Below the pieces are notes generated by a model. It was not told the DNA's origin. It was given only the letters and a program-made list of their open reading frames with translations, and made no database searches. Of a DNA stretch of 36,720 bases, positions 4,425 to 20,865 are shown in pieces; the stretch's first letter is position 1; every line of letters begins with the position of its first letter. The DNA comes from a virus. Location of the stretch: the IMG/VR virus record IMGVR_UViG_3300020390_000010, positions 1 through 36,720 of that record. One strand, written 5' to 3'. Position numbers and translations under genes: made by a program.

Positions 4425-4451
4425 TTTATACACGCGTTGTGCTTTACGCAA
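4425..4451 (-). promoter_or_regulatory. Candidate leftward promoter, possibly leaderless
   Basis: On the minus strand TATAAA (4430-4425) is preceded by a weak TTGCGT (4451-4446) with a short 15-base spacer. The ATG at 4416 begins eight bases after the -10 box. A start site seven or so bases downstream would coincide with the ATG. The -10 is good, the -35 poor. Confidence 0.45.
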
Positions 4452-4455
4452 GCAT

Positions 4456-4492
4456 TAAAAAGCCCCGGCAAGCATTGCACTTGCACGGGGCT
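4456..4492 (-). terminator. Strong intrinsic terminator, leftward
   Basis: On the minus strand the stem AGCCCCG-GCAAG pairs with CTTGC-CGGGGCT around the loop TGCAATG, with a single bulged T, then a run of T residues. It sits just upstream of the HTH gene promoter, so it would stop leftward transcripts that begin in the control region. That implies a short minus-strand RNA from between 4493 and about 4960, or insulation of the HTH gene. Confidence 0.7.
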
Positions 4493-4968
4493 GGGTTGTC
4501 TGCGATACTTGATCGCAAGTCGGGCGTTTAGCGCGCCCGATCCCTGATAGGAAACTGGTTTGGCGGCCGGTGATCAGGGACAGGTAAAGATTACCTTTCC
4601 CTTCCCTCTAAGTCAATCCGCGATCTATCAGGCGCCCGAGGCGCGATAGTGCGTGACGGTCCCGCCGTGCCCCTCATGATAGCGGGTTAGTAATTAGTGC
4701 GAGCAACCGAACCCCTTAGGTCTCGCGACGTGGCAAAAACACCCGGCACCTGATTGGCTGAATACCCAAGATAGCCGTAGGCCAATTAGTCCACCAGGGT
4801 TAAGTGGTGGAGGATGACAGCGCTACGGGAATGCGCTGCTGGTGACGCAGCAATAGCTGATAAGCCGGAGAGGGACCCGAGTAATCCGATACCGCTTTGC
4901 TAGGCGGGCTGGCTCTAGGCCACGGATCAAAGGGGTGTTGAACTAAACCATAAAGGCACAAAAAGTGT
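4493..4968. promoter_or_regulatory. Non-coding control region rich in dyads
   Basis: No convincing gene is seen. Perfect or near-perfect inverted repeats are: TGCGAT/ATCGCA (4501-4517, 17 bp overall), TCGGGCG/CGCCCGA (4520-4540), TCCCTGAT (4541-4548) with ATCAGGGA (4573-4580), CTATC-GCGCC/GGCGC-GATAG (4625-4649), CCACCA/TGGTGG (4791-4810) and CAGCGC/GCGCTG (4818-4838). The motif CTGATA or TATCAG recurs. The left group looks like operators between divergent promoters; the right group could fold as RNA. A 119-codon minus-strand ORF over the right half has an unconvincing composition and crosses the rightward promoter. Confidence 0.5.
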
Positions 4969-4997
4969 TTGACATGGTGAAGCAGCAGGCGCATAGT
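4969..4997 (+). promoter_or_regulatory. Rightward sigma70-type early promoter
   Basis: A consensus -35 TTGACA (4969-4974) and a -10 CATAGT (4992-4997) are separated by exactly 17 bases. It points into the early operon whose first gene begins at 5147, leaving a leader of about 140 bases. The -35 is perfect; the -10 matches four of six positions. Confidence 0.6.
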
Positions 4998-5146
4998 AGA
5001 CATCAACAGCACAACACGCTGGCCGGGACGAGAGAAGAGCCGCCGCCCACCAGCCAAACCGGGAGACTCACCGGGTGTTGCCGCAGCGACTAGGCCACGG
5101 GCCATCAATGCGGGGCTGTAGAGAAGCCACAACAGGGGATAGATCG

Positions 5147-5377
5147 ATGAATGGCGCACACGAAAAACGATTTCTGAGAACTTTCAACATCAACGATCGA
5201 GCCACCGTGCATGCGGTCGAGACCATCTTCCTGCCGAAGCTAGAGGAAGAACGCCGCGAACTGCACGAACTAAACAACGGCTGCATCAGGCGAGGAACTG
5301 GACGCCCGTTTGATGAGTGGATCGAAGAGATCGGCGGTCTGATATCCGCCGTTCGTGAGCGCCTAAGCCACGCCTAA
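5147..5377 (+). CDS. Early phage protein, 76 residues, unknown function
   Basis: Begins MNGAHEKRFLRTFNINDRAT and ends AVRERLSHA. It is a charged, helix-rich cytoplasmic protein with a likely amphipathic segment FLPKLEEERRELHELN. The start at 5147 is chosen because AGGGGAT lies just upstream; a 24-codon in-frame extension to 5075 has no ribosome site. It is the first gene after the rightward promoter and is followed by a tRNA gene. No family is recognised. Confidence 0.65.
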   Translation: MNGAHEKRFLRTFNINDRATVHAVETIFLPKLEEERRELHELNNGCIRRGTGRPFDEWIEEIGGLISAVRERLSHA

Positions 5378-5394
5378 CAGTTCTATGGGATTGC

Positions 5395-5470
5395 GGCCCG
5401 CTAGCTCAATGGATAGAGCATCCGAGTTCTAGTCGGTTGGTTCGGGGTTCGAATCCTCGGCGGGCCACCA
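5395..5470 (+). tRNA. tRNA-Arg (anticodon TCT)
   Basis: A complete 76-base cloverleaf. The acceptor stem GGCCCGC/GCGGGCC is perfect. The D arm is GCTC/GAGC. The anticodon stem CCGA/TCGG has a T-T mismatch at 27-43, and the loop GTTCTAG carries anticodon TCT at 5428-5430. The T arm is CGGGG/CCTCG with loop TTCGAAT. Discriminator A and CCA are encoded. It reads AGA and AGG codons. G at positions 32 and 38 departs from the usual C and A, suggesting divergence from the host gene. It lies inside the early operon rather than at a prophage end, so it is more likely a phage-carried tRNA than a disrupted attachment site. Confidence 0.92.
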
Positions 5471-7152: not shown

Positions 7153-7607
7153 GCGATCTTGCCGATATCGAAGCCCTTGCGAGCGCGCACGGTCTTGATG
7201 TGAAAAATAACAGCAACGGTCACATTCAGATTAGCGGCCGTGGCGTGCTCGTCAATTATTACCCGTTTAGCAAAAAGCGAACAGTGTGGTGCAAAGACGG
7301 ACGCCGAGCAACTGACTGCACAGCATGGGATGCCGTGCGCATGTGCCTGACAGGCGACAACAAGCAACTTAGACCGACGAAGAAGCCGCCGAAAACCCGG
7401 CCTGAAATAGATCTGCAGCCGGCTGTTACGAATCCGGCCGGGGTGCAGCATTTCTACAGCGGCGAAGTGCCGCCGTGGGACGAATCGCTCGAATGGTTGA
7501 GCGCGAACACGTATAGCGACAGCGTGAGGTTGTCGGCATACCGGCTTGAAATGGATGCGCTCGAGCTGCGTGTTGAAGCAAATGAGCTAGACGAGGTGGC
7601 GTCATGA
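7149..7607 (+). CDS. Early phage protein, 152 residues, unknown function
   Basis: Begins at a GTG with GGAGG at 7139-7143. Residues 1-70 include ADIEALASAHGLDV and VLVNYYPFSKKRTVWCKDGR, a pattern I associate with uncharacterised phage proteins. A proline/lysine-rich linker follows, then an acidic C-terminal helix (LEMDALELRVEANELDEVAS). It overlaps both neighbours by four bases (GTGA and ATGA). No catalytic motif is visible. Confidence 0.65.
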   Translation: MSDLADIEALASAHGLDVKNNSNGHIQISGRGVLVNYYPFSKKRTVWCKDGRRATDCTAWDAVRMCLTGDNKQLRPTKKPPKTRPEIDLQPAVTNPAGVQHFYSGEVPPWDESLEWLSANTYSDSVRLSAYRLEMDALELRVEANELDEVAS

Positions 7608-7766
7608 ACACCCCAATCATCACAGGCGAGGCGGCTAACGACTGGTGGCGGGGCGATTCTGTCCTGCCCTGTCGAGTACACCGACCCGCAGTTCTATCAA
7701 ATGGCGAAACGGTTTGTGCAAAAGCACGAGGCCCTTCGCGGGCAACAGAGAGAGGTGGAGGCGTGA
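7604..7766 (+). pseudogene. Small gene split by a +1 frame change (about 53 residues if joined)
   Basis: The ATG at 7604 overlaps the previous stop, giving MNTPIITGEAANDWWRGDSV. Coding-like sequence then continues in the +1 frame as EYTDPQFYQMAKRFVQKHEA and ends at TGA 7764-7766, overlapping the GTG start of the TnpB-like gene. The switch must occur near CTG CCC TGT at about 7662-7670, where CCC followed by T is a known type of +1 slip site. Without slipping, the first frame runs on into the TnpB-like frame and would give an N-terminal extension of 53 residues. The cause may be mutation, sequencing error or programmed slip. Confidence 0.5.
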
Positions 7767-8884
7767 GCGAGTCCAAGAGACTGAAGAAAACTCTTCAGGT
7801 TCGAGTTAAAGATAAACACGCCAAACATCTGGGAAGAATGGCGCGCTCAGTTAATTTCGTCTGGAATTATATAAACGAACTCAGTGAACGATCCATTCGA
7901 GAGCGCGGGCTTTTCCTCTCTGGCTATGACATTTGTAAATTCACTCAAGGGGCTAACAAAGAATTAGGACTAAACAGTCATACTGTTCAGCGTATCGGTA
8001 AGGAATACGCTACTCGACGTAAACAGTTTCGAAAAAATAAATTGGCGTGGCGTAAATCTTTTGGTTCCCGTCGTAGCTTGGGCTGGATTCCAATTAATAC
8101 TGGCGCTTCTAGCTGGAAGTTCGGACAGGTCTATCACAATGGCAGTTATTTCAAGGTCTGGGACAGCTATGGGCTAAGCCAGTATCGCTTTCTCTCTGCG
8201 TCGTTTAATGAAGACGCCCGAGGGCGCTGGTATTTCAATGTCGCGGTGGATGTTGAGCCGTCTTCAGACCGGGCTAATAAAGCCGTCGCTGGTATCGATC
8301 TTGGTCTGACTGACGTAGCAACCTGTAGCGACGGTTCTAAAATGATTAACCATCGATTCTATAAGGGCATGGAAAACATGCTTGCCAATGCTCAGCGGGC
8401 TCGCAAGAAAAGCCGCGTAAGAGCGATACACGCCAAGATAAGAAACCGCCGAAAGGACGCAGCGCATAAGTTTTCGCGCCGTGTTGTTGATAACTACGGC
8501 GCGGTCTACGTGGGCGACGTTAGTTCGCTCAAACTCGCCAAAACCCGCATGGCCAAGTCGGTGTTTGATGCCGGCTGGGGTCAATTAAAGACGATGCTGG
8601 AATATAAATGCGATCACGCAGGCATTGTTTTTAAAGAGGTTGACGAGCGATACACCACCCAAGCCTGTTCGAGTTGTGGCTGTCTGCCCCTCTCGCGGCC
8701 GAAAGGTATCGCAGGCCTTGGAATAAGGCTATGGACTTGCAGTGAGTGCGGTGTCACTCACGACCGCGATATTAACGCGGCCAAGAACATAGCTGCGGTC
8801 GGGCATGGCCGTCCTGTGGAGGGAATTCCGACATTTAACGCGGAAAGATGTCAATGGTGGCCTGATGGGGATAACGCGGCATGA
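7763..8884 (+). CDS. tnpB: TnpB-like RNA-guided nuclease-family protein with altered RuvC site
   Basis: A 373-residue protein, typical TnpB length, starting at GTG with GGAG upstream. The N-terminal REC/WED-type region reaches about residue 170. RuvC-I is GIDLG (D179). The RuvC-II position reads AVYVGDVSSLKLAKT, with Gly251 where TnpB normally has Glu. A four-Cys zinc ribbon follows (C302, C305, C326, C329). RuvC-III is HDRDINAAKNI (D336). A Glu pair at E292 and E295 just before the zinc ribbon might substitute for the missing carboxylate. No TnpA or transposon end is evident. GTGA and ATGA overlaps tie both ends into the operon, suggesting domestication. It could be a nuclease-dead repressor, a rearranged active nuclease, or a decayed transposon protein. 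Confidence 0.93.
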   Translation: MSESKRLKKTLQVRVKDKHAKHLGRMARSVNFVWNYINELSERSIRERGLFLSGYDICKFTQGANKELGLNSHTVQRIGKEYATRRKQFRKNKLAWRKSFGSRRSLGWIPINTGASSWKFGQVYHNGSYFKVWDSYGLSQYRFLSASFNEDARGRWYFNVAVDVEPSSDRANKAVAGIDLGLTDVATCSDGSKMINHRFYKGMENMLANAQRARKKSRVRAIHAKIRNRRKDAAHKFSRRVVDNYGAVYVGDVSSLKLAKTRMAKSVFDAGWGQLKTMLEYKCDHAGIVFKEVDERYTTQACSSCGCLPLSRPKGIAGLGIRLWTCSECGVTHDRDINAAKNIAAVGHGRPVEGIPTFNAERCQWWPDGDNAA

Positions 8885-9051
8885 GCGAAGAACACGACGA
8901 ACGCTGCCAAGGATGCAGTAACAAGCGTCCCGAGATTGAACATTCGTGCCCATTCATCGCAGAAATGCGGGGCGATAACGTAGCCGAGCAGCGGCAAAAC
9001 TTATGCAACTGCTGCTCTGACTGCACTCGCGAATGCCTAATGGATATCTAG
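8881..9051 (+). CDS. Cysteine-rich small protein, probably zinc-binding
   Basis: A 56-residue protein with eight Cys: CQGC near the N-terminus, HSC in the middle, and LCNCCSDCTREC at the C-terminus. The spacing suggests one or two bound zinc ions. It overlaps the TnpB-like stop (ATGA) and precedes the recombination genes by ten bases. The 3' guide-RNA region of the TnpB-like gene, if any, would run into this ORF. No named family is recognised. Confidence 0.65.
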   Translation: MSEEHDERCQGCSNKRPEIEHSCPFIAEMRGDNVAEQRQNLCNCCSDCTRECLMDI

Positions 9052-9061
9052 GAGACCAGAC

Positions 9062-9841
9062 ATGGCAGAACAATCACTAGCAGAAAGCCAGACACAGGAA
9101 GTCGCGCCCAGCAATGAGAACGGCGCGATTATCAGCATGATCGAGCGGGCGGCGAAAGACCCGAACGTCGATATCGAGAAGATGGAGCGGTTATTCACGC
9201 TGCACGAGAAGATGCTGGCACGCAACGCAGAATCCGATTTCAACGCCGCTCTTTCGCGGTTGCAATCCGTGCTGCCCGAGGTTGCCGAAAATGGTGAGAT
9301 CAAGCACGGCGACAAGGTTATCAGTCGGTATAAGAAATGGGAGGACGTGAACCGCGTTATCAAGCCCTATCTTGCCGCTGAGGGCTTCGCGCTGTCTTTC
9401 CGTGTGGATACTGCGGATAAGGTGAAAGTCGCCGCCGTACTAAGCCATACAGGCGGACACAGCGAACGAACCAGCATCACCCTGCCCGCCGATACCGGCG
9501 GCGCGAAAAACGCGGTGCAGGCGGTCGCCTCGTCGGTCAGCTATGGCAAGCGGTACACGGCTGAATCGCTGCTCAATATCACGTCGCCGGGGCAAGACGA
9601 TGATGCTCAAAGTGCGGTGCAGCCTAAAGGTCCAGAGCGTATCAGCCAAGAGCAGGCGGATCAGATTACGGCGAGGCTGGCAGAAACAGAATCTGACCGT
9701 GACCGTTTCCTGCGGGCGCTAGGGCCGAAGATCAGCTGCCGAGATCTGACAGACATTCAGGATATTCCGGCTTCTCAGTTCGATGCGGCGATGCAGCTGA
9801 TCGAATCCAACGCCCAGCGTAAAGCGGTGGAGGCTCAATAA
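9062..9841 (+). CDS. erf: ERF-family single-strand annealing recombinase
   Basis: A 259-residue protein that anneals complementary single strands during phage recombination in the cytoplasm. The ERF core covers about residues 20-190. It includes LFTLHEKMLARNAESDFNAA, a central KKWEDVNRVIKPYLAAEGFALSFR-type segment and KNAVQAVASSVSYGKRYTAE near the C-terminal end of the domain. The remaining C-terminal tail is variable. A ribosome site (AGGAG) sits upstream. Its stop overlaps the start of a YqaJ-type exonuclease, followed by an SSB-like protein. This is the expected exonuclease, annealase and SSB partnership analogous to lambda Red. Confidence 0.9.
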   Translation: MAEQSLAESQTQEVAPSNENGAIISMIERAAKDPNVDIEKMERLFTLHEKMLARNAESDFNAALSRLQSVLPEVAENGEIKHGDKVISRYKKWEDVNRVIKPYLAAEGFALSFRVDTADKVKVAAVLSHTGGHSERTSITLPADTGGAKNAVQAVASSVSYGKRYTAESLLNITSPGQDDDAQSAVQPKGPERISQEQADQITARLAETESDRDRFLRALGPKISCRDLTDIQDIPASQFDAAMQLIESNAQRKAVEAQ

Positions 9842-10503
9842 TGGTCGATATCGAGATAGTGGAGTGTCAGCAGGGCACCGCCGATTGGTTCAACGCCCGG
9901 TCACAGGCCATTACCGCCAGTATGTTTTCGACGGTACGTGACACGCTCAAGAGTGGCCCGAACAAAGGCGGCTACAAGAAAGCGGCTGAGGACTATGCGT
10001 TTCGGCTGGCGATTGAGCGCATCAGCGGGGAGGCCCTGCAGGACGACCAGTTTCAGACGTTCTCGATGAAACGCGGGCATGATCTCGAGCCTGAGGCGCG
10101 CGACATTCACTCGTTTCGCCTTGGCTGCGATGTCGAGCAAGCCGGCATTGTCCGCACCACGGATCGATGTTTTGGCGCCTCGGTGGATGGCCTAATCGGC
10201 GACGACGGGATCAGCGAATACAAATGCTTCGTTGCACCCGAAAAGCTCAAGGCCATTCTGATCGACGGCGACATCTCCGATGTGACCGATCAGATCCAGG
10301 GCGGATTATGGCTGACCGGCCGCAAGTGGTGTGACTTTGCACTTTACTGTCCCGCCCTGTCGTGTATCGACCAAGAGCTAACGGTCAAGCGCGTTCATCG
10401 CGACGACGACTATATCGAAGCGATGGAGCGTGACCTAATAGCTTTCGACGCACTCGTTGAAAGCTATCGCTCACAACTCATGAAAACCAAGGAAGCAGCT
10501 TAA
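9841..10503 (+). CDS. YqaJ-type 5'-3' exonuclease (lambda Exo-like)
   Basis: A 220-residue PD-(D/E)XK exonuclease that would process double-strand ends to single strands for the neighbouring ERF annealase. Diagnostic parts: GTADWFNARSQAITASMFS near the N-terminus, RGHDLEPEA (E83/E85), VDG with D116, and the active-site EYK (E126, K128) after ISEY. A conserved QIQGGLWLTG segment follows, typical of YqaJ proteins. The start shares a base with the ERF stop and the stop shares a base with the next ATG, so the three genes are coupled. Confidence 0.92.
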   Translation: MVDIEIVECQQGTADWFNARSQAITASMFSTVRDTLKSGPNKGGYKKAAEDYAFRLAIERISGEALQDDQFQTFSMKRGHDLEPEARDIHSFRLGCDVEQAGIVRTTDRCFGASVDGLIGDDGISEYKCFVAPEKLKAILIDGDISDVTDQIQGGLWLTGRKWCDFALYCPALSCIDQELTVKRVHRDDDYIEAMERDLIAFDALVESYRSQLMKTKEAA

Positions 10504-20054: not shown

Positions 20055-20768
20055 TTAAGCGGAGTTCTTTCTAAATTTTTTCTGTGTAGGGGCAAAAAGC
20101 GCACTGCCTCGCTTACCCGCTCGATATCTAGCCTTTAACGTGACATGCTTTATACCAAGACACTGACTCCACTGAAAAAGATTTTTGCATTCGCCTAGAT
20201 ATTTGACGCGCACCTCTCGGTCAGTGCGGCCAAGTGGCCGCACCAACTTATCTCCGCGATGGCCTTGCTCGTAATAACGCTTTTTAATGACCGAATACGG
20301 AATACCGTAACGTCTGCCAAGCTTATGAAGTCCAATCCTTTTGCCGTGAAAGATAACGAATCGCTCTGCGTGCTTGTTTGGTACGAGCAAATCTTCACCG
20401 CGGAGCCCGTATCGATAGCGCTGTTTAACGATCGCATAGGAAATGCCACGCAACTCAGCCCACTCGACCATCGGCCGGGCATCCCCACCAATATCGATCA
20501 TGACGTTGTTGGATTTATTTCGAGATTGCTCTTTTTTAGTAGCCCACCGACAATTTTTTGGATTGTATCCTTCATTATTGTCGATACGGTCTATCGACAT
20601 ACCTTCAGGACGAGGGCCCATGTCAAATAAAAAATTATCGTATTCGAGCCAACGCTCACATACTTTTATCCCTCGACCACCGTAGTCATTATAACTTCCG
20701 CATCTCGGGTTATTGCACCTATAAATCATGGACTTCCAAGATTTATATGCCCCAGTGCTACTTTTCAT
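20055..20768 (-). CDS. HNH endonuclease with three DNA-binding repeats
   Basis: A 237-residue protein. The nuclease core (residues 1-90) contains RCNNPRCGSYNDYGGRGI, CERW, MSIDRIDNNEGYNPKNCRWA, a pattern of phage HNH proteins. Then three copies of a repeat GIxxxxIKxRYxxGxRGxxL occur at about 98-130, 145-178 and 197-227, probably helical DNA-reading modules. The ATG at 20768 has GAGAGAGG upstream, preferred over a TTG three codons earlier. Strikingly AT-rich against its neighbours, so a recent mobile insertion into the tail operon between the DUF1833 and NlpC genes. Confidence 0.88.
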   Translation of the reverse strand: MKSSTGAYKSWKSMIYRCNNPRCGSYNDYGGRGIKVCERWLEYDNFLFDMGPRPEGMSIDRIDNNEGYNPKNCRWATKKEQSRNKSNNVMIDIGGDARPMVEWAELRGISYAIVKQRYRYGLRGEDLLVPNKHAERFVIFHGKRIGLHKLGRRYGIPYSVIKKRYYEQGHRGDKLVRPLGRTDREVRVKYLGECKNLFQWSQCLGIKHVTLKARYRAGKRGSALFAPTQKKFRKNSA

Positions 20769-20865
20769 TGGATGCAACCTCTCTCATTGCCTCTCGAATG
20801 GTAAGCGCGCGGCAAATGTATCGAGAGTCGCACATCTTTCGGCCGCTAAACCTAGCCGCGCGCAT
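20758..20865 (-). CDS. Possible 35-residue ORF upstream of the HNH gene
   Basis: Starts MRAARFSGRKMCDSRYICRA and stops just inside the HNH gene. It may be the displaced 5' end of a tail gene cut by the HNH insertion, or simply leader sequence. It contains the HNH gene ribosome site. No family is seen. Confidence 0.25.
   Translation of the reverse strand: MRAARFSGRKMCDSRYICRALTIREAMREVASNEK

Follow-up and report, generated by a model that had tools for sequence, protein, structure and literature searches.

A phage tnpB gene with an alternative catalytic glutamate and no detectable transposon left end may encode an RNA-guided homing endonuclease

The window analysed here, a 36,720-nt stretch of viral DNA (IMG/VR record IMGVR_UViG_3300020390_000010, positions 1-36,720), carries a tnpB gene on its plus strand (7763-8884, GTG start, 373 aa), found in the ORF list and matched in profile searches by PF07282 (E 1.5e-25), PF01385 (E 1.6e-13) and the guided_TnpB family NF040570 (E 1.9e-69). 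An AlphaFold model based on a 25-sequence alignment (pLDDT 79.8, pTM 0.49) retrieved TnpB, Cas12f and Fanzor2 structures in Foldseek, with ISDra2 TnpB (8h1j) as the top match (E 2.3e-18), and the protein has the split RuvC domain and zinc ribbon of the TnpB fold. The ribbon cysteines C302-C305 and C326-C329 (8666-8749) are all present in the translation and in the alignment of relatives, as the preliminary description had stated. Downstream on the same strand lie a cysteine-rich 56-aa gene (8881-9051) weakly matching a protein of a Cellulophaga phage, an Erf-type single-strand annealing recombinase (9062-9841; PF04404, E 2.7e-13) and a YqaJ-type viral exonuclease (9841-10503; PF09588, E 3.8e-12). 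The 4-bp ATGA overlap between tnpB and the downstream gene (8881-8884) is as first described, whereas the GTGA overlap claimed for the upstream side is weaker: the frame on that side, with its stop at 7764-7766, lacks a good start. An alternative in-frame ATG for tnpB lies at 7604, overlapping the stop of the preceding ORF (ATGA); starting there, the protein would have 426 aa. Elsewhere in the window, an HNH endonuclease gene (HNH_3) is located at 645-1277 on the minus strand and a second HNH-like free-standing endonuclease, recognized by eye only, lies between tail genes at 20055-20777 (minus strand); the two may be further homing-type genes of the same phage.

The initial reading of the locus noted intact RuvC-I and RuvC-III blocks (GIDLG with D179 and HDRDINAAKN with D336), both of which are seen in the translation, and a RuvC-II block, YVGDVSS, with Gly251 in place of the catalytic Glu. 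Alignment with ISDra2 TnpB supports this register, the canonical Glu falling opposite G251. Conservation was scored across 96 full-length relatives, drawn from a collection of 26 sequences from viral contigs, 80 kept of 135 from genomes and the phage records LPSTLL and HFM1. D179 (codon 8297-8299), G251 (8513-8515) and E295 (8645-8647) are each invariant in 96/96 relatives, and D336 (8768-8770) in all 94 aligned ones. E292, the other residue proposed as a substitute, is a Glu in just 44 of the 96 and was discarded as the catalytic candidate. E295 sits exactly six residues ahead of the first CxxC; this is the alternative glutamate (Ealt, E-x6-CxxC) that Yoon et al. (2023, PMC10711439) described for Fanzors and for TnpBs of a D-phi-G group. 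With D179-L180-G181 at RuvC-I, E-x6-CxxC present and the canonical Glu missing, the window TnpB fits the D-phi-G/Ealt group by motif; its authors delimited that clade by motif and tree, and the window gene differs from it in being phage-borne, without left end or tnpA. It shares the Ealt position with Fanzors and pro-Fanzors as well, but these have DPG at RuvC-I, so that the D-L-G sequence places it outside the pro-Fanzor group. In the structural model G251 closes strand 247-251 and E295 comes after strand 289-293, positions consistent with a topologically shifted Glu.

The preliminary description had left open whether the protein is a guide-directed repressor or a nuclease using E292 or E295. 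A nuclease-dead, RNA-guided repressor of the TldR type would account for the Gly at the canonical RuvC-II position and for the placement of the gene in a phage operon. However, Gly251 occurs in every relative, multi-copy transposons among them; the Ealt Glu is equally invariant, D179 and D336 are intact, and TldRs, which share with the window the combination of a phage-borne TnpB derivative and a guide RNA, have lost RuvC residues (PMC13418256) where the window protein keeps a full D-E-D set. Since G251, E295 and D179 are invariant and E295 fits Ealt, we set the repressor aside on residue conservation and consider it very improbable. The nuclease alternative is thus supported, with E295 as its residue. 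Because Gly251 is invariant in a family that consists mostly of multi-copy transposons with left ends, several also with a Y1 tnpA, it is a family hallmark rather than a lineage-specific inactivation. Relatives with transposon ends, which together with a normal Glu had been named as decisive against the first reading, do exist, but none of the 96 full-length family members has the canonical Glu. From its sequence, the window TnpB has almost certainly retained its cutting site through a Glu at the second known position, and D179, E295 and D336 would form an active RuvC site. The Gly251/Glu295 arrangement is an already known active-site variant; the unusual part is the setting, a TnpB with neither left end nor tnpA inside a phage operon of recombination genes.

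A second claim, that no transposon end is visible, stood for the left end and failed for the right. In genomes with several copies (Azomonas, Pantoea, Vreelandella, Thiofilum, Moraxella and Psychrobacter), copies within a genome share their DNA from a hairpin on the left, ahead of the gene, to exactly 17 bp beyond the stop and then diverge, the shared part terminating in (A)GGATGTCAA. As Rfam gave no omega-RNA family for the window, a right-end model was made from these relatives. The 78 nt preceding the right end form three helices with 95.8% of cells paired; 15/17 pairs have changed on both sides, which none of 500 shuffles equalled. Built without the window sequence, the covariance model matches 8779-8854 (66 bits, E 4.7e-17), placing an omega-RNA 3′ scaffold over the 3′ end of tnpB, where a guide RNA had been predicted and a covariance search suggested. 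The consensus structure comprises helix 1 (8795-8800/8807-8812), helix 2 (8813-8815/8820-8822) and a terminal hairpin (8826-8830/8841-8845), followed by the right-end terminus GATGTCAA (8847-8854). With the right end stopping at 8854, the predicted 20-nt guide is TGGTGGCCTGATGGGGATAA (8855-8874), immediately after the right end and so placed as in every multi-copy relative; a structured omega-RNA at the gene's 3′ end thus adjoins its guide, as is typical of TnpBs. What hid the end from the first description is that the TAG normally used as stop, in the hairpin loop, falls out of frame in the window, so that the ORF crosses right end and guide to a TGA overlapping the next gene. The guide is therefore both flanking phage DNA and coding sequence.

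Helices 1 and 2 remain paired in the window scaffold, and the terminal hairpin is among the weaker ones, with five pairs (four in L001, five in L029; short ones occur elsewhere too). IS605 transposases bind this terminal hairpin. A short hairpin next to intact helices suits a guide function that is retained while transposition is relaxed. Folded without constraints, the window's 76 nt take a minimum-energy structure other than the consensus, which speaks mildly against this. The right-end model gave one further match in the window, at 4731-4820 (13.4 bits, E 0.09), a hairpin followed by GGAGGATGACAG, which resembles GGAGGATGTCAA; it is weak and may be fortuitous, the relic of a former right end or a guide RNA that stands alone. 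It falls within ~530 nt devoid of a convincing ORF (4440-4970) that are predicted to fold better than shuffled sequences (z -3.0) and match no Rfam family at gathering score. No match to 4440-5395 was found among phage records, and a tRNA-Arg (TCT) gene is present at 5395-5470. Possibly, 4440-4970 is a structured phage RNA of a new type.

Of the hallmarks of IS200/IS605 elements, the window thus has the right end and lacks left end and Y1 tnpA. A left-end nhmmer model built from 14 elements, which reaches 61 relatives at E < 0.2, had no match in the 1.5 kb upstream of the window tnpB. Consistent with the original remark that tnpA is missing, PF01797 is absent from the window's record, which may be a fragment; Y1 tnpA is likewise missing from 7/8 phage records tested. 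Some of the multi-copy relatives carry a divergent one (L049; PF01797, E 6.5e-39), and many tnpB-only elements also lack Y1 tnpA. With loci truncated at a contig edge set aside, and bearing in mind that some 'absent' left ends will be diverged ones, 17 of 23 phage loci (the window included) lack the left end, compared with 16 of 66 chromosomal loci (Fisher p 4e-5; p 0.003 with near-duplicate phage loci removed). According to a tree built from 82 proteins, the left-end-less state arose several times: the window, on a long end branch, groups with L001, L002 and L031, all left-end-less (SH-aLRT 92), and a second left-end-less pair (support 100) unites the LPSTLL copy (L028) with the lambdoid type (L020). 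In this collection, the tnpB of the Salmonella phage LPSTLL (L028:5986-7077, MN737551) is labelled 'putative head morphogenesis protein' in GenBank, a misannotation, and by eye six loci (L003, L004, L007, L008, L019 and L023) have a divergent small ribbon-helix-helix-like gene upstream of tnpB. The domestication first proposed for the gene is accordingly supported as loss of left end and tnpA, but not as inactivation.

The main rival to a functional role is that the gene is a decaying IS605-type remnant, which has lost left end, stop codon and part of the terminal hairpin and drifts without function in the phage operon. The missing left end and tnpA, the ORF that runs on over right end and guide, the shortened terminal hairpin and the long branch in the tree would all be expected of such a remnant. 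Against it, the 373-aa frame is open with all catalytic and zinc residues kept, the omega-RNA has intact helices 1 and 2, and the degradation is confined to the part needed by the transposase. Moreover, the same left-end-less arrangement within an operon is seen in L001, L002 and L031, the nearest relatives, on which purifying selection acts (dN/dS 0.13). By the NG86 method, left-end-less copies in different settings gave dN/dS values of 0.13 (L001-L031) and 0.07 (L021-L028), and window-L001 gave 0.135 with dS near saturation; judged from the sequences of the close pairs, left-end-less tnpBs are under purifying selection. We therefore regard decay as unlikely, if still the strongest competitor.

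For three left-end-less tnpB types, the tnpB-free site is known in related phages, and in each the guide equals the empty-site sequence. The lambdoid tnpB (L020-L022) is situated shortly upstream of erf. Its tnpB-free site in the isolated phages HK633, 720R6, PDP110P2 and PhiR12 reads GAGTTTTAC/AGATAACTGGTCAGACGAAG (slashes mark junctions), and the occupied site (L021) reads GAGTTTTAC/CAATAAGGGG...tnpB...GGATGTCAA/AGATAACTGGTCAGACAAAG. Comparison of LPSTLL with seszw and SB28 gives GTGAT/AGAATTAAT...; at the left junction, nine bases of the target recur. In L001, L002 and L031 the insertion is located at a gene start (...CACCCCAATGAC/TGAGCGCA...tnpB...GATGCCAA/TGAGCGCACAGACCGCGAG), an uninterrupted version of which was found for L001/L031 in several other contigs. 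Any insertion would produce this identity of guide and empty site, so cutting is not thereby demonstrated; it does make the empty allele the predicted target. The TAMs deduced from the empty sites differ (TTTAC, GTGAT and ATGAC), and elements with a left end use TTAT. Among 5,426 complete E. coli genomes, one (strain A2, from a platypus) carries the lambdoid L021-type tnpB and 605 match its right flank, which argues against an efficient drive of this type in E. coli. Around the TGAGCGCACAGACCGCGAG matches in L146-L177, one gene start, M-T-(A)-E-R-T-D-R-E, is common to genes with unrelated bodies. Present in many phage contigs, this start resembles a recombination linker, and since it is matched by the L001/L031 guide, a guide of this kind could have several genes and phages as targets.

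At the window's own locus, the first seven guide bases recur as TGGTGGC at 7643-7649, a candidate left copy of the protospacer start, marking a putative left junction; ~2% of control guides match as well or better. The 113 nt from there to tnpB (7650-7762) contain no IS605-type left-end hairpin. Analogous guide-prefix repeats measure 8 nt in L001/L031 and 9 nt in L028, although a left-end element (L045/L046) also reaches 9 nt, which makes the repeat supportive at most. Joined at this junction, the candidate empty allele would read GACTGGTGGCCTGATGGGG and form a 22-codon ORF starting at 7604 that would run in frame over the junction with ATGA overlaps to both neighbours, and AACGAC before the junction would be the candidate TAM. 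The stretch 7650-7766 reads as a gene fragment in another frame; alternatively, there may be a single upstream gene with a frameshift. We infer the junction from the window itself, as searches for a homologue or empty allele returned none: Erf relatives in viral contigs were at most 42% identical, the gene downstream of tnpB had no relative and the peptide upstream no homologue, the degenerate pattern DWWPDGD had one, unrelated match, and 369 gammaproteobacterial genomes yielded a best Erf of 46% and no empty site of the window.

An active nuclease could instead have had its guide repurposed against something unrelated, such as a rival phage, a plasmid or a host gene. The intact catalytic site and guide would allow this, and TldRs (PMC13418256) are an example of phage-borne TnpB derivatives that have other targets. 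Yet the match next to a TAM-like motif that the preliminary description proposed to look for did not materialize: the guide 16-mer had 23 exact matches in 2.9 million viral contigs, the longest of 18 nt, without extension and none after TTAT, and the window holds no second guide match. With no plausible target in either, a repurposed guide appears improbable.

The reading that we favour, at a probability of roughly 0.58, is that this TnpB cassette, devoid of tnpA and left end, is an active RNA-guided nuclease directed against its own empty allele in the manner of a homing endonuclease or gene drive. Catalysis, the window's own empty allele with its TAM, and homing are what we infer here. Released from the 3′-terminal part of the tnpB transcript, the omega-RNA (8779-8854) would carry as its guide the ~20 nt of phage sequence that follow it (8855-8874). 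As the guide is the sequence following the insertion, cleavage is predicted at the insertion-free locus, and the window TnpB thus probably aims at tnpB-free versions of the site where its gene is inserted, in phages or prophages. Repair off the tnpB copy by the phage recombination genes directly downstream, erf and yqaJ, would then copy tnpB in; or else the tnpB-free rival would simply be destroyed. The retention or gene-drive role of IS605 TnpB would in this way be continued without left end and tnpA, as with a free-standing homing endonuclease.

ISDra2 TnpB (8exa, 8h1j) and other IS605 omega-RNA nucleases share with the window TnpB the fold, the zinc ribbon and a 3′-end guide RNA reaching the right end, but ISDra2 TnpB has the canonical Glu where the window has Gly, and the window lacks a transposon left end and tnpA. 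In plasmids, the role of TnpB as a gene drive for insertion sequences has been tested experimentally (PMC11870625). There, too, the guide records the insertion site and element-free copies are the predicted target; that work concerned a complete IS200/605 element on plasmids, whereas the window represents a phage locus without left end, known from sequence. Free-standing homing endonucleases of phages lie between phage genes, cut the allele without them and spread by phage recombination. The window tnpB shares the position between phage genes, and a cut of the insertion-free allele and spread through phage recombination are predicted for it too, but homing endonucleases recognize their sites by protein-DNA contacts, and here an RNA guide would set the specificity.

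More tentatively, the same may apply beyond the window: in several phage lineages, the window's included, TnpB cassettes may have shed the left end and now be transposase-independent, RNA-guided homing endonucleases, reprogrammed at each site by the flanking DNA and copied via erf and yqaJ. For phage TnpBs with a Gly at RuvC-II, the six residues before the zinc ribbon should be checked before they are filed as dead repressors. The E. coli lambdoid L021 type, with the isolated tnpB-free relatives HK633 and PhiR12, makes the homing reading testable in laboratory E. coli K-12. If it is true, TnpB would persist without its transposon, and a nuclease, a 3′-end scaffold and a flank would suffice for selfish spread among recombining phages.
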